Origin: a virus
IMG/VR virus record: IMGVR_UViG_3300042549_004948
Coordinates: 62,001-126,000 of that record
Reading direction: 5' to 3' (one strand)
Length of the DNA stretch: 64,000 nucleotides
Below, one piece after another: positions 1,500 to 61,646 of this stretch; within the stretch, counting starts at the first letter, position 1, and each line of letters begins with the position of its first letter. Below the pieces are notes generated by a model that worked only from the letters and a program-made list of their open reading frames with translations, was not told where the DNA came from and did no database searches. A program made the translations under genes and the position numbers.

Positions 1500-1509
1500 A
1501 TATTTATAA
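1500..1509 (+). promoter_or_regulatory. ATATTTAT promoter-like box before the GIY-YIG gene
   Basis: ATATTTATAA ends 3 nt before the ATG at 1513. It shows the same box-to-start arrangement as at 1171, in the gap between two plus-strand genes. Confidence 0.35.
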
Positions 1510-1512
1510 TAA

Positions 1513-1974
1513 ATGGGTTTTATGAAAAAGTGGTTATATAAAGAATTAGACTCTACTAAGGAGTTTTACACCCTAGAAGATTTTCCTCAAGACACTATTG
1601 GATTCGTATATAAAGTTACTAATATATGTGACGGCCGCATATACGTGGGAAAGAAGGTTCTTTTCAATAATCTAACAAAGACATTAACCAAGAAAGAGAT
1701 CGCGGCATGGTCATCGCCTGGGCGCGTCCCACGCAAGAAGAAGGTGATAAAGGAGTCTGACTGGGAGTCTTATTGGGGAAGCAACAAGCACATAAAAGAG
1801 GATTTAAAGAATCTGGGTGAAAAGTGCTTCACTAGAGAGATCCTGACATTCTGTAAGACTAAGAAACAACTAACCTACTATGAAGTTTATTGGCAAATGA
1901 AATTAGAAGTGCTTGCCATAAACTCTTACAATGATAATATTCAAGGTAGGTTTTATAGAAAGGATCTAGAATAA
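1513..1974 (+). CDS. GIY-YIG nuclease-like protein
   Basis: A 153-residue protein whose residues 30-50 (GFVYKVTN...GRIYVGKK) match the GIY-YIG nuclease core with the usual phage variant Y-K-V-T-N/Y-V-G-K-K. The following W-x-S-Y-W-G-S-N-K segment and the Y-Y-E-x-x-W-Q-M helix are typical of phage members related to homing endonucleases. The region around 1695-1760 is notably GC-richer than its surroundings and codes a basic stretch, PRKKK, likely for DNA contact. It could be a free-standing homing endonuclease or a domesticated relative. A hairpin follows the stop at once. Confidence 0.75.
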   Translation: MGFMKKWLYKELDSTKEFYTLEDFPQDTIGFVYKVTNICDGRIYVGKKVLFNNLTKTLTKKEIAAWSSPGRVPRKKKVIKESDWESYWGSNKHIKEDLKNLGEKCFTREILTFCKTKKQLTYYEVYWQMKLEVLAINSYNDNIQGRFYRKDLE

Positions 1975-2345: not shown

Positions 2346-3377
2346 TTACGCTCCTACATCTTCTGTATCTAAATCTGCTAAGTTGATGTCATCTTCTTGC
2401 ATACTAAAATCAGTAGCAAAGAAGTCAACTATGTCTTGTGGATCAAATCCGTCATCAATTAGATATTTAATTGTATCTCTAGTTAGAGAGTTGGTAGCAA
2501 GCATTTTTAATACAGACATATCTGAGAATCCTTTTAGTCTAGCTAAATCAACTGCTTTTTTAATTTTAGGCAATTGAGGTATAAGTATAGTGTCTATAAG
2601 TCCCATCATACGATTCTGATCCTCACTCTCAAATCCTGAGGCAGCATCTCTTTGTGCCTGGATAAAAGAATCATCTTCCATACCCTCGTTCATTCCTAGT
2701 GTATCTTTTACAACTCTAAGAATATTTTGAGGTGTTTCTCCTTGGCTCAAAAGATTTTCAATCGCTCCAAGAAGTCGATCATATTCGTTCATATCTATAT
2801 CTTCTGCTTCTTCAACATTTGCTTCATCATCAGTAGGGGCTAAAACTCCCCAATTAGATTCTAAATCTTCTATTCTATTAAGATACGGCTTCATAGCTGC
2901 AGCATATTCATTAAAATCTGCAAATATACCTTGGTTTAAAGCCATCATATCTTCATTCTCTCCATTAACATCAATTTGAATAGGAGTAGTATCATCACCA
3001 TCATAATTAGGAGTGGCATATATAGCTATCTTATCGAAAGGCATGTCTTTGTAAGACCAAACTAAAACACCGGGATAATCATAATAACATTTCCAATTTC
3101 CAACTGTATAGGCTTCTGTACCATCTACATCTTTCATCCATGAATTTTCCATATCACCATCCATTTCATTCATACTAACATCCATGTGACGATTAAGTTT
3201 ACCACCAAGACCGTCAATAGGATCTTCAGGACCTTCATAAGGTTCTTTCATAGCTTTTTGTTGACCTAGATTAGTCTCCTCTTCTTTAAGAGGATGGAGA
3301 TCTACGTATTTACCTAAGATACCATGAGATCCTAGGCTATGTTCTTTCAAATACTTTGCAATGTTAAAATCTTTCAT
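2346..3377 (-). CDS. 343-residue acidic protein, possible virion-associated protein
   Basis: An acidic protein with no enzyme motif that I recognise. It starts MKDFNIAKYLKE and has a GGKL-N-x-H stretch, a W-K-C-Y-Y-D-Y-P region near residue 95, and a long helical Asp/Glu-rich C-terminal half (DIDMNEYDRLLGAIENLL). The short amphipathic N-terminus is a recurrent feature of large-phage proteins and may be a targeting or cleavable peptide; that is inference. An ATATTTAT box lies 21 nt upstream, so the gene probably has its own promoter. Confidence 0.6.
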   Translation of the reverse strand: MKDFNIAKYLKEHSLGSHGILGKYVDLHPLKEEETNLGQQKAMKEPYEGPEDPIDGLGGKLNRHMDVSMNEMDGDMENSWMKDVDGTEAYTVGNWKCYYDYPGVLVWSYKDMPFDKIAIYATPNYDGDDTTPIQIDVNGENEDMMALNQGIFADFNEYAAAMKPYLNRIEDLESNWGVLAPTDDEANVEEAEDIDMNEYDRLLGAIENLLSQGETPQNILRVVKDTLGMNEGMEDDSFIQAQRDAASGFESEDQNRMMGLIDTILIPQLPKIKKAVDLARLKGFSDMSVLKMLATNSLTRDTIKYLIDDGFDPQDIVDFFATDFSMQEDDINLADLDTEDVGA

Positions 3378-23303: not shown

Positions 23304-24590
23304 TTACTCTATAGTGAGTAGATTCATATCGAATGGTGGGTTTTGAACTACAACTTGATCCTGAGCTAGGCTGACTACATTCAGGACATTAATTCTTGCT
23401 GCACCTAGTTCATATATTCCTGGTTCAGAAGGCTCTATAATGTCGCCCAAGCGCGTCAGGTTAGATAGGAATAAATCTTTACCTGGATCTACTATAGAAC
23501 TAAAGTTCAGATCTATTTTTATATTATAATTCTGCGGTTCTCCTATTTGATAGACTTGATTATAGTCTGTTATACTAAAGAATTTTTTAGACACTTCCCA
23601 GTCTTCCTTAGAGAATTTTAGAAGCTCATTGGCAACATCATGCTCTGTAGAATATAGATCTACAACAAGCTTTTTATCTTCTTTTGTTTGAAGCCAGACT
23701 CTGGAAAAGAACGGTTCTATTTGCACTAGAAACATTGGACTAATCTTCATGTCGCTCTTTATAACAAGATCAATATCTAACTTGTTGAGCTTAACTTGTC
23801 CATGATTAAAGTTGCCCCACTTCTTAATGAACCTTCTGAGTTCAATACCATCTGCTATCTTCTGAAGTTCCACTCTCTTTTTAGCTTCCTGACTATTAGG
23901 ATCAAACCAATTCTTTCCTCTAGAACTTACACAAGTAAAATGGTAAACATTTGCTTCCCATGTTTGTAATAACTTAATGCCAGCATGTATGCATCTTTGA
24001 ACTAAATCAGAGTCTTCTCTAGATCTTCTGAACCTAGTGTCATAGCCTCCAATACTTTGCCATACTTTTTTATAAAATGTTATTGGAGCAAAGAAGTATT
24101 CTGCAGATCTATTTGATTTTATAGACTCTGAATACTTGTTCCATCTTTCCATATCAAATACAGTTGGATCTGTTCCAAAGTCTTGTGTTATAGTGTAATC
24201 TGAATATCCATGTAGTGGTGGTTCTACTCTAGTTGCTGATAAGATGCAATTCTCTTCTAAATAAGATAATACGTTAGTATCATAATGAGGTCCAATTACC
24301 ATGTCTGATTGTAGATAGCTTACGATATCGTGTTTAGCTAATTCAACTAGTAGATTATTATTTCTAGCATAACCTACACAAGGATTAAGTTTATGAGTTA
24401 TTATTTTAAGATCAAAGAAGTCTTTCTTAAGATTCTTTAAATACCCATAAACATCTTCATTGTCTGAATCTATAAAGACAAGTATCTCATGCTCCTTTTC
24501 ATCTAGGTTATCACGAAGAGACTTCATTAAGAGTTCTATATGATCTCTAGTATTTACAGATGTATTAATTATAAAGCTTATATTTTTCAT
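23304..24590 (-). CDS. Family 2 glycosyltransferase
   Basis: 428 residues. The N-terminal 250 residues form a GT-A domain: SFIINTSVNTRDHIELLMKSL, EILVFIDSDNEDV, a Q-S-D-M acidic metal motif at ~95 and an R-x-x-R-S-R-E-D-S-D-L motif near 190 typical of the acceptor/catalytic ED region of GT2. The C-terminal 170 residues, with no motif I know, may be a separate acceptor-binding part. It is the last gene of the glycan cluster and overlaps the epimerase gene by 26 nt. Sugar and acceptor unknown. Confidence 0.8.
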   Translation of the reverse strand: MKNISFIINTSVNTRDHIELLMKSLRDNLDEKEHEILVFIDSDNEDVYGYLKNLKKDFFDLKIITHKLNPCVGYARNNNLLVELAKHDIVSYLQSDMVIGPHYDTNVLSYLEENCILSATRVEPPLHGYSDYTITQDFGTDPTVFDMERWNKYSESIKSNRSAEYFFAPITFYKKVWQSIGGYDTRFRRSREDSDLVQRCIHAGIKLLQTWEANVYHFTCVSSRGKNWFDPNSQEAKKRVELQKIADGIELRRFIKKWGNFNHGQVKLNKLDIDLVIKSDMKISPMFLVQIEPFFSRVWLQTKEDKKLVVDLYSTEHDVANELLKFSKEDWEVSKKFFSITDYNQVYQIGEPQNYNIKIDLNFSSIVDPGKDLFLSNLTRLGDIIEPSEPGIYELGAARINVLNVVSLAQDQVVVQNPPFDMNLLTIE

Positions 24591-47466: not shown

Positions 47467-47481
47467 AACTGTTTATTTTAG

Positions 47482-47565
47482 TACCTAAGATGGGATTCGA
47501 ACCCATACGGGCTTTCAGCCCATTTGATTTTAAGTCAAACGCGTATACCGTTCCGCCACTAAGGT
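47482..47565 (-). tRNA. tRNA-Leu (anticodon UAA)
   Basis: Cloverleaf with acceptor ACCTTAG/CTTAGGT (one T-T mismatch), anticodon arm TTTGA-CTTAAAA-TCAAA giving UAA, a long variable arm GGGCT...AGCCC, and T-arm ATGGG-TTCGAAT-CCCAT. The 84-nt length suits a class II tRNA. No CCA is encoded. Reads UUA codons, which are frequent in AT-rich phage DNA. Confidence 0.93.
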
Positions 47566-47727: not shown

Positions 47728-47805
47728 ATCTATTATCTAAATATAATACTAAATCTTCTAATTTATTAAATAGATCTTTTGAGTATATTAATTAATTTGT
47801 AAGAG

Positions 47806-47876
47806 ATGTTCCTTTAGGATTCGAACCTAAACTAAGTGGACCAAAACCACTTGTGCTACCGTTACACCAAGAAACA
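47806..47876 (-). tRNA. tRNA-Gln (anticodon UUG)
   Basis: 71-nt cloverleaf: acceptor TGTTTCT/AGGAACA, D-arm GGTGTAACGGTAGCACAA, anticodon arm AGTGG-TTTTGGT-CCACT giving UUG, T-arm TTTAGG-TTCGAAT-CCTAAA. Discriminator is T; no CCA is encoded. Reads CAA codons. Confidence 0.93.
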
Positions 47877-48002: not shown

Positions 48003-48445
48003 TGGACCTGGAGAGATTCGAACTCTCGTCTCCGATAGAGACAATAATACTAACGTATCACATGCTTAGTACTGCTTGCGCTGCACCGTACATCAGTTGT
48101 TTAATAGGTACAACTAATAAAACCTTGATAGCACGGCTTCGCCCCCTGTATACCGTGTCGTAGAATGCTTGAGGTACGCCTCAACGTAGCTAGGGAGCCA
48201 CTCATTCCCACAGTCCTTATTTAACGAGTTGATCGTGAATACTCGGAGTAGTTCTGTTCCTAGGTTACTCACCCGATGCGGACTAAGCTGCTACAGCTAG
48301 GTCGGCGCCTACGAAGTCCATAAGGTCTTCGAAGGTGAATGAAGATAATTCTTCAGCGTTTATTGTTTAGTATCTTCTAAGGCAGTATACTCAAATGCCT
48401 GCATGTAGTATTACCTCAACAACCGGATCAATTCCAGTCAGGCCC
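48003..48445 (-). ncRNA. ssrA: tmRNA (transfer-messenger RNA)
   Basis: The 5' end GGGCCTGACTGGAATTGATC and 3' end pair as an acceptor (GGGCCTG with CAGGTCC), followed by discriminator A. The 3' T-arm is GAGAG-TTCGAAT-CTCTC. An internal reading frame at 48357-48283 starts GCT GAA and ends GCA GCT TAG. It encodes a 24-residue tag that begins AEELSSFTFEDL and ends GADLAVAA, the -AA end used by ClpXP. The tag is longer than the usual 9-11 residues of Bacteroidota tags. GC-rich pseudoknot-like stretches follow the tag. It would rescue stalled ribosomes during infection. Confidence 0.93.
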
Positions 48446-51035: not shown

Positions 51036-52238
51036 TTAATGTCCCTTATTTGGGAATCTAGTCCATCCAACTGTCCAACCAGGTTTTGACAGTGTTTCCA
51101 TTTCGTTTTTAGTATAAGACACTTCTTTATTTCCTTGACTCAATGCTTTTGTTTTCATTTCTGATGCAATTATTACAGCAGATGTAGATCTAAAATTTTG
51201 TAATGGATCAAATGCTTGTACTTCGTTATTTTCAAACTTGCTGACTCCATCTTTATAAGCTTGAGCAGTTTCATTTGACTCTATACTAAAGCCGCCTTTC
51301 ATGTAACCTAGTATCTTGGAGTTAGTTATTGTGAATTGGGTGGCTCTCCTCCACCTCAATCCTAAGTTATGATTGGTTATTGAGTTAGCATCAAAAGGGC
51401 CTACCAGAATCATCCCAATTAGCTTTGGGTGAGTAAATGGCTGCGCGCTTGATCCTGTTCCATCATTATCGCATTCTACACCATTACCAGCATCTCCATT
51501 ATCTACAAATTGAGGATCGCGTTTTGATACTCCGTTTGTTACAGTTCCAGTATATCCAAAGTCAAAGTCGAAGTCATCGTCTGCTGTAGCATACGCATAT
51601 AAGTTCTTAGGTGATACTGTGCCTCCAAAAAATTCAAAGGCATCGTCGTTAGCGTAGATAGTTTGGACATTTTCGATTGTAGTACCTGATCCTACTGCAC
51701 CTAAAGTTAATCCATTGATTTCTGAGTTTGGTAGTGCAGCTATGCCTGCATATTCTATACGAATATACTTTAATATACCACTATTATCATTATCATTCAT
51801 ACCACCATAAGGTCTACCAATACCACCTTCAATAGTTGGTTCAGCCGATCTATTTGTTTTAGCGCGGCCTAGTATTACAATACCTCCCCAATCTCCAGGA
51901 GTTTTTTCTCCTTCAGGTTTTCCTGATGTAAACACGATAGGTTTTGATACGGTTCCTTCTGCAATTATTTGTGCGCCTCTTTCAATACATAGTGCACCTT
52001 TCTCAGCAATATCACTTATTATAGTAGTGCCAGGCTGAATGATTAATCTAGCACCATCAGTTACATACACGTATCCTTTGAGTGTCCATACTTTGTCTGA
52101 TGTTAAAGTAGTTGTAGTATTAATGTTACCACTCAATGTAGTTACAGAAGGTACGTTGATAGGTTGCGCGTCGCCGCCTAGTTCTTTAGTGCAACTGAAG
52201 ATACTGGTAGCAATTAGTAATAAGAAAAGCTTTTTCAT
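51036..52238 (-). CDS. Beta-helix lipoprotein paired with a TonB receptor
   Basis: 400 residues. MKKLFLLLIATSIFSCTKE is a lipoprotein signal with Cys16. The rest (LTSDKVWTLKGYVYVTDGARLIIQPGTTIIS...GGIVILGRAKTN...YIRIEYAG) reads as right-handed parallel beta-helix turns. Such lipoproteins are encoded next to TonB-dependent receptors in many Bacteroidota and appear to work with them in uptake of a solute. It overlaps the receptor gene by 4 nt and ends with a terminator. Seeing this pair in a phage is unusual. Confidence 0.78.
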   Translation of the reverse strand: MKKLFLLLIATSIFSCTKELGGDAQPINVPSVTTLSGNINTTTTLTSDKVWTLKGYVYVTDGARLIIQPGTTIISDIAEKGALCIERGAQIIAEGTVSKPIVFTSGKPEGEKTPGDWGGIVILGRAKTNRSAEPTIEGGIGRPYGGMNDNDNSGILKYIRIEYAGIAALPNSEINGLTLGAVGSGTTIENVQTIYANDDAFEFFGGTVSPKNLYAYATADDDFDFDFGYTGTVTNGVSKRDPQFVDNGDAGNGVECDNDGTGSSAQPFTHPKLIGMILVGPFDANSITNHNLGLRWRRATQFTITNSKILGYMKGGFSIESNETAQAYKDGVSKFENNEVQAFDPLQNFRSTSAVIIASEMKTKALSQGNKEVSYTKNEMETLSKPGWTVGWTRFPNKGH

Positions 52239-54487
52239 AAGTTTACGTTTAGTGTTAATGAGACTGTTTGTTCATTGTTTATTTTTATTAAGTCGCCTCT
52301 ATTCTTTTGATAATATCTAGAAGGCTGAGCTAATACATCTGATATGGCTAATTTTATTTCAGCTTTCTTTATCTTTCTAAGATACACAATATCTACTACG
52401 TCTCTAGAATTTTCAAATATATCTGAATAACCTTGAAAACCTACTGCAGATATTCTATCTCCGACTCTATTGTATGTTACATTTAATGTGTTAGAGTTTT
52501 TGTGTAAATTTAATCCTCCATTGATAATATAATTAGACTGACCTTGTAGTTGTCTTTTAGATCCATTTACATTTACTTGTGATGTCATGATCGATGTATT
52601 AGCGTAGAAGTCCATCCAGCAAGTCATTTTCTTTCTTACTTCTATTTCTACACCATACAAATGTGCTTGATCTGGGTTCATATAAGTTAACAGTAAGTTT
52701 GAAGGAACAGATCCATCTGCTACGATTTGTTCGATAGGTTTTATGAATTGCTTACCAAATACTCCAATAGATATTGTTTCACCGGCTTTAGGATAGTATT
52801 CCCATTTTAGATCTATATTGTAAACATCAGACTTTTCTAATTTCGAGTTACCTAGTAGTTGTGCATTTCTAATAAAGTCATAGTAAGCAAAGTTAGCTAC
52901 TTCTCTAAATTCTGGTCTTGCTAAGGTTTTGCTTATAGAAAACCTCTTCTTAATTCTGTCTACTGTTTTTGATATATTTAATGAAGGTAAAAAGTCTAAA
53001 TACTTTCTGTCTACATTTACTTTTTGCCCACTAAAATCTGCTGTGTTAACTGTGAATACATTATACTCTGTTCTTAGGCCCGTGTTTAACTTCCAGTCTC
53101 CAAACTCTCTATCGTACATGATATAACCAGTCATCAAATCGAAATCAGCTTTATATCTGTCTGTGTTGTTTGTTATTTCGTTCATCAAGTCAGAAGCTTC
53201 GTATCTAAATACTCTTGCTTGAAACTGTCTAATCTTTTTTAAATAATTAGAACCTATCTTAATATTGTTAAATTGTTTGTTAACGCTTGCATTGAAACTA
53301 TTTTCATTCATTACACTCCAAAATCTGTAAGTATCTCTCCAAGCTATGGAATAGTTTTGATTTGTTCCTAATGATTTAGTAATAGGATTTACTCTATAAT
53401 CAGGTTGATCTCTCAACATTAAGTTATAACCTATATTAAAATCAACAGTCTTGATCTTAGTATCGAATTGAGAATTAAGAACAGTCTTTACTATTTTATT
53501 ACTCGATGTACTTCTAACGTCTTGAACGTTGTCGTAGTTCTCACCGAACCTGGTAAGATAGGATTGTTCTGTTTGATGATTGAATAAAGTTTTTAGACTA
53601 TATCTATACTTTCCTATGTAAGTAATATTCAAAAGAGAATTAACAGATTCTATTTGTGTGTAAGAAGTGTCTCTGTATTTGTACGCAAGCTCTGTAGAAG
53701 ATTGATAGTCTAATCTATCGATGTAATTTAAAGTGTGAGATCTCCTTCCTGTAGAACTCAATAAAGCATTCCATTTATTTTTATTAATTCCAAATGAAAG
53801 TGATCCATTATAATTAGGGCTAGATGTAAAACTTTTTGGTTCATAAGATTGAAGCATCTTTGTGTATGCTCTTCTATCTCCTAAACTACCGACTCTAAAG
53901 TTATACGTAGAAGGAAACGCGGAAGGGAATTTAGCTCCTTGTACTAACTTGAAGCCTTTCGAAGTTGAAACTAAACCCCAACCGGTTCCTAGAGAAATAT
54001 TTAAAAAACTATTAGATACATCTTTAGTTGTTATTTGAATTAATCCGCCAGAAAAATCTCCGGGTAGATTTGCTGCAGCAGACTTTGCTACAACTATATT
54101 GTCTATTAAGTTAGAAGGAACTATATCAAAAGAGAAAGCTCTTCTATCTGGTTCTGTTGATGGAAGCAGGGTTTTATTTAGTAAGGCTGAATTGTATCTA
54201 TCCGCTAGCCCTCTAACTAAAACGAATTTATCGTTTTGAATAGTAACTCCGTTAATTCTTTTTAAAGCATCACCTACAGTTCTATCAGGAGTCTTTTTTA
54301 TATACTCTATAGATATTCCGTCTGATACTACAGAACTATTTTTGATGGAGTTAATTACCGCTAAATTACTTTCTTTCTTGGCTACTGACTTTACTGTTAT
54401 CTCTCTTAAATTTTTATTGAAAACTGTATCTTGAGAGTATGCTAAAATAGGAAACAGCGAAACAAAAATAAAAAACGACTTAATCAT
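52235..54487 (-). CDS. TonB-dependent outer-membrane receptor
   Basis: 750 residues. A signal peptide (MIKSFFIFVSLFPILAYSQ) and then the plug domain: VGDALKRINGVTIQNDKFVLVRGLADRYNSALLNKTLLPSTEPDRRAFSFDIVPSNLIDNIVVAKSAAANLPGDFSGGLIQI, the classic receptor plug with G-D-F-S-G-G. A long beta-barrel follows, ending with the strand QTVSLTLNVNL. The carboxypeptidase-like N-terminal extension of SusC types is absent. It would sit in the host outer membrane, for nutrient uptake or to block other phages. Confidence 0.88.
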   Translation of the reverse strand: MIKSFFIFVSLFPILAYSQDTVFNKNLREITVKSVAKKESNLAVINSIKNSSVVSDGISIEYIKKTPDRTVGDALKRINGVTIQNDKFVLVRGLADRYNSALLNKTLLPSTEPDRRAFSFDIVPSNLIDNIVVAKSAAANLPGDFSGGLIQITTKDVSNSFLNISLGTGWGLVSTSKGFKLVQGAKFPSAFPSTYNFRVGSLGDRRAYTKMLQSYEPKSFTSSPNYNGSLSFGINKNKWNALLSSTGRRSHTLNYIDRLDYQSSTELAYKYRDTSYTQIESVNSLLNITYIGKYRYSLKTLFNHQTEQSYLTRFGENYDNVQDVRSTSSNKIVKTVLNSQFDTKIKTVDFNIGYNLMLRDQPDYRVNPITKSLGTNQNYSIAWRDTYRFWSVMNENSFNASVNKQFNNIKIGSNYLKKIRQFQARVFRYEASDLMNEITNNTDRYKADFDLMTGYIMYDREFGDWKLNTGLRTEYNVFTVNTADFSGQKVNVDRKYLDFLPSLNISKTVDRIKKRFSISKTLARPEFREVANFAYYDFIRNAQLLGNSKLEKSDVYNIDLKWEYYPKAGETISIGVFGKQFIKPIEQIVADGSVPSNLLLTYMNPDQAHLYGVEIEVRKKMTCWMDFYANTSIMTSQVNVNGSKRQLQGQSNYIINGGLNLHKNSNTLNVTYNRVGDRISAVGFQGYSDIFENSRDVVDIVYLRKIKKAEIKLAISDVLAQPSRYYQKNRGDLIKINNEQTVSLTLNVNL

Positions 54488-56594: not shown

Positions 56595-58364
56595 TTAATT
56601 AAAGTTATTGTATCCGGTTAATTTTATGGACTGAGTATTTAAATTGATTCCTAACTGATTGCCATTATTGTCTGAAGCATCCAGGTTCGAGGTTATTTGT
56701 ATTTTAGTATTCAGATCTAACCCGTTTTCGAGTGCCGAGAATTTTAGTTTAAATGGTAGTGATGCGCCTATTATAGAATTTTTAAGATCTTTGTCTATAG
56801 CTCCAAATTTTATTTTACCTTCTTTAGAATTAGCAAATACATACCATGAATTAGGTACTTCAGATTTAATATCCTCAAATTTTACTTTAGTATTATCATA
56901 GACAAATTCAAATTGTATTGCAGATACATTATTTCCTTTAGTGTCTAAATTTATAGGAATTTCTATATTGTTTGATGTGATAACTATATTTTTTAAATTA
57001 ACATCTATATAAGAAACATTTTTAATATCATTAAAACCATATGCAGCATTTGAAAGCCCAGATAATAACAAACTATTTTTTGCGGTTGTTATAGTTTGTC
57101 CATTTAATACAACTTGAGAAGAGTGAGACCTATTTATATCTCCTGGTACTATATATTTTAAATCAACTGTATCAGCCACACTTTTAGTTTTGAACTTAAC
57201 TTTAAAAGAGTTCATATCTGTAAGTGTTAGTTGCAAAGCTTCATCTACACCAACATTGTCAAAATAGTTTTTTGTGAATATAGGCAAATTAGTAATATTA
57301 GAATTAGCTTGGCTATTAAATATAGTGTCCGCTCCTACTGCTTGAGCAAAAAGTAAGGCTAAATCTCCTCCGTCAAACTTTTGATTTCTATTAACATCTG
57401 CTGCAAAAAAACTCATTCCTGATGTCATTGAAATTTTATTAAATGTTCCATCAAGGTTTTGTTTAATAAATTCATTTTGTGCTGCTGTGTAATCTGATAC
57501 TGTTACAGCTCTAGATAGTATGCTCCCTAAACTATCTGAAGGGATCCATGCGGATGCATAATAAGTTGTATTAGGCAAAATCTCACTAGATAAATTATAA
57601 GATCCATTAGTACCAACTGATCTACTTGCTCTTAGTATATTATTAGTAGAATCTGTAAAAGCTAGTGTAGGCTTTAAATTACCAAATAAATTTCCGTTGA
57701 CTTGAAAAGTTCCGCGAATTAGTGCATTTAAATTGGGATCTAGATTAATCCAAGCAGAATTAGGTTTGGGCATTGTAATTGTCATTTCTTGACCTGAGTT
57801 ACTCCATCCGTATGCAAAGTTATAATAAATAGAATCATAAGCAAAACCTGCTTGGATATTAACTACTTTAAAACGAAGATAACAAAGAACACCATTGTTC
57901 AGTTGTGTCATATTACCATTAGGAGTGGCAGTATTAATGTTAATACGATTAATAGCTTTAGTTTGTCCTTGTGCATATTGATACTGCGCATTTTGTGAAT
58001 TTTGCAAACCATTCTCGGTATTATTGTTTGCATTATTAAACCAATTATATCCTGGATAGTAATTATTAGAAAACGAAGTTTGAGTTCCAATAGGAATAGC
58101 TTCTGTTCCTGATTGTGGAAACACAATTCCTATCATACTGATAGCCGATATTTGATGTTGGAAGTCAAGATAAAAGTTTCTTATATTAGAGTTATTATTC
58201 TTTAATACAAGAGCGACTTCAACTGTATCATCTTTTTCAATGGCTCCGCCATTAATATCTGTAGTTATTAAGTTAGGCCAGATTTTAAGTTCTGGTGGTG
58301 TATTCTGGCTATAGGATGAAAAAGCAACTATAAAAGTAGCTAAAAGCAAAATTATTTTTTTCAT
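56595..58364 (-). CDS. Secreted protein with cohesin-like and dockerin-like parts
   Basis: 589 residues. Signal peptide MKKIILLLATFIVAFSSYSQ. Residues ~40-210 and ~450-585 read as cohesin-type beta-sandwiches (NISAIQFEFVYDNTKVKFEDI...). A central dockerin-like loop pair (FFAADVNRNQKFDGGDLALLFAQAV) is typical of calcium-binding dockerins. Proteins like this mediate surface or matrix contacts. The small lipoprotein at 56234 is the next gene. In the phage context it may remodel the host surface. Confidence 0.65.
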   Translation of the reverse strand: MKKIILLLATFIVAFSSYSQNTPPELKIWPNLITTDINGGAIEKDDTVEVALVLKNNNSNIRNFYLDFQHQISAISMIGIVFPQSGTEAIPIGTQTSFSNNYYPGYNWFNNANNNTENGLQNSQNAQYQYAQGQTKAINRININTATPNGNMTQLNNGVLCYLRFKVVNIQAGFAYDSIYYNFAYGWSNSGQEMTITMPKPNSAWINLDPNLNALIRGTFQVNGNLFGNLKPTLAFTDSTNNILRASRSVGTNGSYNLSSEILPNTTYYASAWIPSDSLGSILSRAVTVSDYTAAQNEFIKQNLDGTFNKISMTSGMSFFAADVNRNQKFDGGDLALLFAQAVGADTIFNSQANSNITNLPIFTKNYFDNVGVDEALQLTLTDMNSFKVKFKTKSVADTVDLKYIVPGDINRSHSSQVVLNGQTITTAKNSLLLSGLSNAAYGFNDIKNVSYIDVNLKNIVITSNNIEIPINLDTKGNNVSAIQFEFVYDNTKVKFEDIKSEVPNSWYVFANSKEGKIKFGAIDKDLKNSIIGASLPFKLKFSALENGLDLNTKIQITSNLDASDNNGNQLGINLNTQSIKLTGYNNFN

Positions 58365-60191: not shown

Positions 60192-61646
60192 TTAAACTAT
60201 GATTCCGTTAACTACTTTACCAGCTACATCGGTAAGTCTATATCTTCTTCCTAAGTGTTTATATGTAAGCGTTTCGTGATCTATTCCCATCAAGTGTAAT
60301 ATTGTTGCGTGGAAGTCATGAACATCTACAGGATCTTTTATAATATTGTATCCAAATTCATCTGTTTCTCCATAAACAATACCGGGCTTAATTCCTCCAC
60401 CTGCCATCCAGATGCTGAAACACTTTGGATGATGATCTCTGCCATAATTTATAGGATCAATTCTTCCTTGACAAAAGTTTGTTCTTCCAAATTCACCACC
60501 CCAGATTACGAGTGTTTCGTCAAGGAGTCCACGTTGCTTCAAGTCTTTTATAAGTGCTGCTGAAGCGCGGTCTACGTCTTCTGCCTGCATTTTCATATCG
60601 TTAACAAGATTGCCATGGGTATCCCATCCTTGGTGATAGAGTTGAACAAAACGAACGCCTGATTCAGTTAACTTTCTTGCTAGCAAACAATTCGCAGCAT
60701 ATGTTCCAGGAATTAAACAATCTGCTCCATACATTTTAATGACATGGTCAGGTTCTTTATTTAAGTCTGTTAATTCAGGAACTGCTGTTTGCATACGATA
60801 AGACATTTCGTATTGTTGAATTCTGGTATTTATCTCAGGATCTCCAAAATTTTGAAATGCTTCGGTGTTAAACTTTGCTAGTTGATCTAGCATATCTCTT
60901 CTATTTTGCTTATTGTGTCCTTCTGGATTTTTAAGATATAATACTGGATCTTCGCCGCTGCTAAACACAACTCCTTGGTGCATACTATCTAAAAAACCAT
61001 TGCTCCAAAGTTTTGAATATACACCCTGACCATTGCCGCGTCCACGGGAAAGCAAAACCGTATAAGCAGGAAGATTAGAATTTTCACTTCCAAGTCCATA
61101 ACTCATCCATGCACCCATACTAGGTCTATTGCCTTGTTGTGCACCTGTTTGGAAAAATGTTAGTGCAGGATCGTGGTTAATTGCTTCTGTATTCATACTT
61201 CTGATGATACAGATATCGTCTGCTATTGATCCTATATGTGGAAATAAACTTGATATAGAAGCACCTGATTGTCCGTACTGATTGAAACCAAATGCAGAGC
61301 CTACCAATGGGAACTTATCTTGGTTTGCAGTCATGCCAGTTAACCTTTGCCCATTTCGTATTGAGGCAGGTAGATCTTGACCATGCATTGTATTCAATAG
61401 AGGTTTGTGATCAAAGGTTTCAAGTTGAGACGGTGCTCCATTTTGAAACAAGTATATAACTCGTTTTGCTTTTGGTGCAAATTGTGCAATACCAAGTGGT
61501 AAAGATTTAACTTCTCCACTAGATCCAAACAATTGATCTTTGAATAGCATGGTTCCTAAAGCAGCGCTTCCGATACCTAGACCTGCCTTTGTTAGAAAAT
61601 GCCTTCTAGTAATGTTTAGTCTAAACTGTTTTTCTTGGTTTTCCAT
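60192..61646 (-). CDS. DUF1501 (sulfatase-fold) protein with Tat signal
   Basis: 484 residues, full length. ITRRHFLTKAGLGIGSAALGTMLF is a twin-arginine signal. RVIYLFQNGAPSQLETFDHKP is the metal-site start of the DUF1501/alkaline-phosphatase fold, with later GWDTHGNLVNDM, VIWGGEFGRTNFCQG, GRDHHPKCFSIWMAGGGIKPG and DPVDVHDFHATILHLMGIDHETLTY. The family is typical of Planctomycetota and Bacteroidota, where it pairs with DUF1553/DUF1800 proteins. No partner is seen here. Likely taken from a host; substrate unknown. Confidence 0.88.
   Translation of the reverse strand: MENQEKQFRLNITRRHFLTKAGLGIGSAALGTMLFKDQLFGSSGEVKSLPLGIAQFAPKAKRVIYLFQNGAPSQLETFDHKPLLNTMHGQDLPASIRNGQRLTGMTANQDKFPLVGSAFGFNQYGQSGASISSLFPHIGSIADDICIIRSMNTEAINHDPALTFFQTGAQQGNRPSMGAWMSYGLGSENSNLPAYTVLLSRGRGNGQGVYSKLWSNGFLDSMHQGVVFSSGEDPVLYLKNPEGHNKQNRRDMLDQLAKFNTEAFQNFGDPEINTRIQQYEMSYRMQTAVPELTDLNKEPDHVIKMYGADCLIPGTYAANCLLARKLTESGVRFVQLYHQGWDTHGNLVNDMKMQAEDVDRASAALIKDLKQRGLLDETLVIWGGEFGRTNFCQGRIDPINYGRDHHPKCFSIWMAGGGIKPGIVYGETDEFGYNIIKDPVDVHDFHATILHLMGIDHETLTYKHLGRRYRLTDVAGKVVNGIIV

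Follow-up and report, generated by a model that had tools for sequence, protein, structure and literature searches.

Phage tmRNAs have so far been noted singly, and what a phage gains from one is poorly understood; reviews list only a few of them, chiefly from mycobacteriophages and phage G (PMC4131195). What such a gene may do for its carrier is the question raised by the window analysed here, a stretch of 64,000 nucleotides representing bases 62001–126000 of a 162,469-base virus record. From its sequence alone, the window had been predicted to encode a phage-borne tmRNA with paired tRNA-like ends, a perfect T-arm and a 24-residue tag of its own, which could steer stalled proteins to a different protease or change the speed of their degradation.

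The locus is confirmed as a full-length tmRNA gene (Table 1). Running the covariance model RF00023 on the minus strand (cmscan) returned a match at 48445–48000 (-) that covers model positions 1–374, its full length, with 56.1 bits (E 2.5e-19; gathering cut-off 47 bits). Without CCA the tmRNA spans exactly 48003–48445, the 3' CCA being incompletely encoded. The predicted tRNA-like domain (TLD) can be read directly from sequence and alignment: the ends form a 7-bp acceptor stem, GGGCCUG/CAGGUCC, with a G3–U70 wobble, which is the alanine identity pair, and are accompanied by the perfect T-arm, without an anticodon arm. Acceptor and T-stem variants among ten aligned relatives preserve pairing, and the relatives' acceptor stem GGGGATA/TATCTCC keeps the G–U pair.

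Table 1. Features of the tmRNA locus in window coordinates.
Feature	Position	Strand	Basis
tmRNA (ssrA) gene, 443 nt	48003..48445	-	RF00023, end pairing, alignment with 10 relatives
Acceptor stem, 5' strand GGGCCTG	48439..48445	-	Pairs with CAGGTCC 48010-48004, read from sequence
PK1 pseudoknot, S1 48400-48396/48384-48380, S2 48391-48387/48373-48369	48369..48400	-	Covariation, 14 relatives
Tag frame, resume codon GCT to stop TAG, AEELSSFTFEDLMDFVGADLAVAA	48283..48357	-	Rfam resume-codon alignment, peptide conservation
T-arm GAGAG-TTCGAAT-CTCTC, perfect 5-bp stem, loop TTCGAAT	48011..48027	-	Sequence and RF00023 alignment
tRNA-Gln (TTG), next RNA gene downstream of tmRNA	47805..47876	-	ARAGORN, RF00005
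tRNA-Leu (TAA), same RNA-gene cluster as tmRNA	47481..47565	-	ARAGORN, RF00005

PK1 is an H-type pseudoknot (AGGCA/UGCCU and AGUAU/AUACU) that ends 11 nt upstream of the resume codon. It was assessed by covariation in an alignment of 14 relatives; an automated pseudoknot finder chose other pairings in many relatives. Pairing is retained in 95.7% of the cells, against at most 58% for slid controls, with 26 double-change cells distributed over six pairs versus a shuffle mean of 8.5, and the covariation score was matched by none of 500 shuffles. Behind the tag, the region at 48100–48250 (-) where PK2–PK4 would lie aligns poorly to close relatives and differs from them in sequence and length, the window's module being about 50–60 nt longer, whereas TLD, PK1 and tag align well. 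This suggests that pseudoknot modules are exchanged between phage tmRNAs. The longer post-tag module may also be the reason why ARAGORN, proposed as a second check on the minus strand, did not call the tmRNA at 48003–48445 in the window.

The resume codon GCU (48357–48355) aligns to the Rfam consensus resume codon GCA and opens a frame of 24 codons with a UAG stop at 48285–48283, encoding the peptide AEELSSFTFEDLMDFVGADLAVAA with a hydrophobic, Ala-rich C-terminus (AVAA). Covariance-model match, PK1 and the position of the resume codon all agree with the original prediction, which also had both the start and the end of the tag right. The frame is not a chance one, as it is conserved as a peptide in at least 244 loci and the fold of the entire gene reaches z = -2.7.

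These loci came from IMG/VR, where a first scan with a 3'-end tmRNA pattern blind to the tag yielded 108 viral loci, many with related long tags, and further members were gathered with degenerate tag patterns; the family size is a lower bound. At least 244 contigs carry a tag of 22–27 residues with the core ELSxMTFEDAMxFVGAD and the consensus (x)ELSTMTFEDAMAFVGADYAVAA. IMG/VR includes near-duplicate contigs, one of them (L081) identical to the window across the compared region. Clustering of the loci gave at least 172, 113 and 39 clusters at 98%, 90% and 80% identity, respectively. A tag HMM matches all 25 viral family records, the window tag with an E-value of 1.3e-14 while itself being among the model's 18 rows; every phage genome gave a single match, with no repeat of the peptide at another site. 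The C-terminus is VAA, LAA or IAA in 227 of 243 members. Only 162 of the at least 244 loci are called by ARAGORN and 82 are missed, some of them truncated by contig or locus ends; standard annotation overlooks many such tmRNA genes. Two other types of long tag recur in phages, xxTQSSRVAEGDAILASIFGEVAIAA (L025, L032, L039, L055) and LSDYTVESLFAELEGELALA (L023, L029), which are possibly parallel tag families. A motif shared between the present family and other long phage tags (SRVAEGDAILASIFGEVAIAA; LSDYTVESLFAELEGELALA) is unproven, as profile comparison gave a probability of only 15%.

As far as tested, the tag family is confined to phages in the collections searched. The degenerate tag pattern, which matches 128 of 140 viral members, was absent from all 84,980 species genomes of bacteria and archaea, and the tag HMM matched none of 396 genomes of the phylum Bacteroidota. 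Neither the tmRNA nor the tag was matched in isolate phages by DNA and protein searches, among which tblastn with a short query has little sensitivity for tags that have diverged, and a phmmer search of PDB chains was likewise empty. The contrast with host tags that had been pointed out is borne out: bacterial tmRNAs found with the same 3'-end pattern, mostly from Bacteroidota, have a median tag of nine residues, with GENNYALAA-like tags dominant, versus the 24 residues of the window tag. The commonest tag length in a database of 97,179 tmRNAs is ten residues (PMC11915505). Long phage tags per se are already known, as exemplified by the 25 residues of mycobacteriophage Yucca. The novelty appears to lie in a conserved, widespread and phage-specific tag family that seems undescribed, its core peptides being absent from the literature searched.

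The substitution pattern indicates that the tag frame is under purifying selection as a peptide. When each of the 113 clusters at 90% identity is sampled once (93 distinct cores), pN/pS in the tag frame is 0.26 (bootstrap 0.13–0.42), compared with 1.58 and 2.18 in the other two frames and 0.96–0.97 in all frames of the adjacent non-coding PK1 stretch upstream. Over the 88 distinct cores of 51 nt, entropy averages 0.41, 0.25 and 1.04 at the first, second and third codon position, and S3, M11, F13 and G15 are invariant, with synonymous codons varying where possible. As members were partly gathered by the tag pattern, its fixed positions are favoured; this bias is small, since 33 of the 35 family members from the tag-blind scan fit a looser tag pattern. 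The peptide could also be conserved for co-translational needs instead of binding.

We consider it likely that the gene encodes a functional one-piece tmRNA that is charged by the host, bound by host SmpB and used to tag stalled proteins for ClpXP, and whose conserved module binds a protein. During infection, host alanyl-tRNA synthetase would recognise G3–U70 and charge the RNA with alanine, and host SmpB would bind it; use of the host protein is probable because no SmpB was found in the phage. The charged tmRNA would then enter ribosomes stalled on broken mRNAs, where alanine plus AEELSSFTFEDLMDFVGADLAVAA would be appended to the stalled protein before normal termination. An end of the -VAA type is the usual ClpX-type degron of ssrA tags, and host ClpXP would probably degrade the tagged fragments. 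The conserved -VAA/-LAA end argues that this signal is retained and not replaced. The 17-residue module ELSxMTFEDAMxFVGAD would represent the phage-specific part, maintained by selection on the peptide; it probably binds a protein, and we lean towards a host proteolysis or ribosome-associated factor as the partner, since no gene family exclusive to the tag phages and no constant neighbour gene was found, and the record gave no ClpP match. More tentatively, and at somewhat less than even chances in our view, a widespread T4-like phage clade, with uncultured members, would during infection replace the host ssrA tag with this module plus a ClpX degron. The module would recruit one particular factor, probably of the host, and thereby either reroute the products of trans-translation or turn the tagged fragments into effectors of host takeover. 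The virus appears to use a label of its own, and the idea of a dedicated function is much stronger now that the long tag belongs to a widespread family with a core conserved at the peptide level. Conservation of this peptide over more than 100 viral clusters, together with its absence from the searched bacteria, shows that selection acts on the message of the phage tmRNA and not on ribosome rescue alone, and as a short defined peptide the tag can be synthesised to fish for its partner.

The record itself is that of a T4-like phage, and Flavobacterium phage immuto is a relative of it. It encodes a T4-like module of TerL, gp20-type portal and gp23-type major capsid protein (phrog_2, phrog_213, phrog_138), along with GroEL, DNA polymerase A and ribonucleotide reductase, and the gp23 capsid family was found in 16 of the 25 tag-family records, several of the remainder being fragments. 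The closest TerL proteins of isolates are those of phage immuto (55.6%) and Microcystis phage Mel-JY01 (54.1%), while that of an uncultured 484-kb phage, which carries a tmRNA as well, is 46.7% identical. A Bacteroidota host is likely. Bacteroidota-like genes in the window (52235–54487, 56595–58364 and 60192–61646, all (-)) encode TonB-plug/outer-membrane barrel, cohesin-domain and DUF1501 proteins, an annotated cohesin-domain protein being present in immuto too, and a long block of sugar-nucleotide, glycosyltransferase, aminotransferase and methyltransferase genes at 23304–45526 (-) compares with the 49–60 kb region of immuto. Five of 26 records searched (25 of them tag-family) have full-length GOLLD RNA (RF02032, 257–306 bits) at a distance of a few kb from their tmRNA; in L123 the GOLLD RNA is at 2810–3221 (-) and adjoins a tRNA array, and the others are the records of L127, L183, L207 and L259. 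No GOLLD RNA was found in the window's own record.

The best-surviving alternative to a host partner, albeit an unlikely one, is that the conserved peptide binds an adaptor, protease or inhibitor encoded by the phage, which would create a private pathway of degradation or sequestration. Exclusivity of the tag to phages in all collections searched fits this idea, as do divergent ClpP-fold proteins in some family phages. Against it, the window's record gave no ClpP match, and no neighbour gene is constant, the most frequent one accompanying 37 of 140 loci. At BLAST sensitivity, moreover, no family common to at least five of the six other tag phages is missing from the tag-less immuto. A partner could nevertheless be found among the approximately 30 shared core genes or be a fast-evolving protein. 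SmpB was found neither in the record nor in any other tag-family record tested; the sole SmpB among the tested records comes from one of 298 kb, whose tmRNA is a different one.

Much less probable is that a tmRNA acquired from the host simply drifted to a longer tag, with a functionless extension and only the -VAA end of importance. Its 3' half and TLD do resemble Bacteroidota tmRNAs, and scattered cases of long tags are found in both bacteria and phages. Peptide-level conservation of the tag frame, however, excludes simple drift and has already largely refuted this explanation: conservation is higher in the extension than in the surrounding RNA (pN/pS 0.26 versus 0.97 upstream), and the four invariant residues persist while their synonymous codons vary. 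Slightly less credible still is a tmRNA whose main effect is to compete for, or titrate, host SmpB, with tagging incidental. Phages with TLD-only tmRNAs do exist, as in phage DS6A (PMC4131195), whose RNA inhibits the host tmRNA (PMC11915505), and a 112-nt TLD-like RNA was encountered at locus L234; the present gene, however, retains PK1, resume codon, long frame and stop codon, and the frame is under selection. Least plausible of all is conservation of the tag for RNA structure inside the tmRNA. The tag region of a tmRNA can contain helix P5, and the Rfam alignment puts a hairpin across the tag, but peptide-level conservation argues against an RNA-only explanation, substitutions being concentrated at third positions of the tag frame and pN/pS exceeding 1 in the other frames.

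Returning to the preferred reading of a host-serviced tmRNA with a phage-specific tag, parallels exist in several known systems. Mycobacteriophages of cluster C (Bxz1-like) likewise combine a phage tmRNA, a long tag and a tRNA cluster, and the 25-residue tag of Yucca, ATDTDATVTDAEIEAFFAEEAAALV, was confirmed; the sequence is a different one, with the C-terminus ALV and actinobacterial hosts, and by eye the few positions identical to the window tag are not significant. Huge phages have been reported with both tmRNA and SmpB (PMC7162821). Huge phage LR756508.1 has a T4-like TerL 46.7% identical to that of the record and its own tmRNA at 72 bits, but its tag falls outside the ELS...FVGAD family. 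Read by eye, this tmRNA (L232, about 1501–1944 (+)) has an apparent 36-residue tag, GVNNADYESAGFTAEDFAQMDGESLYHGSERKPAAV, while ARAGORN reads another frame. The same genome contains, besides this full tmRNA, the 112-nt RNA of L234 (1501–1612 (+)), which fits both ends of RF00023 with 58.2 bits, lacks the message part and resembles the TLD-only tmRNA of DS6A. Flavobacterium phage vB_FspM_immuto_2-6A (Immutovirus) has many core genes in common with the record and a similar glycosyltransferase gene order, but carries no tmRNA. The ssrA of Bacteroidota (RF00023) shares the TLD with G3–U70, PK1, the resume codon context, the -[VL]AA end and a common 3' sequence pattern (CTAAGCATGT...GACG); the phage gene differs from it in lying in a record without an SmpB gene match, and in a tag of 24 residues versus a median of nine, whose conserved N-terminal module is absent from the bacteria searched.
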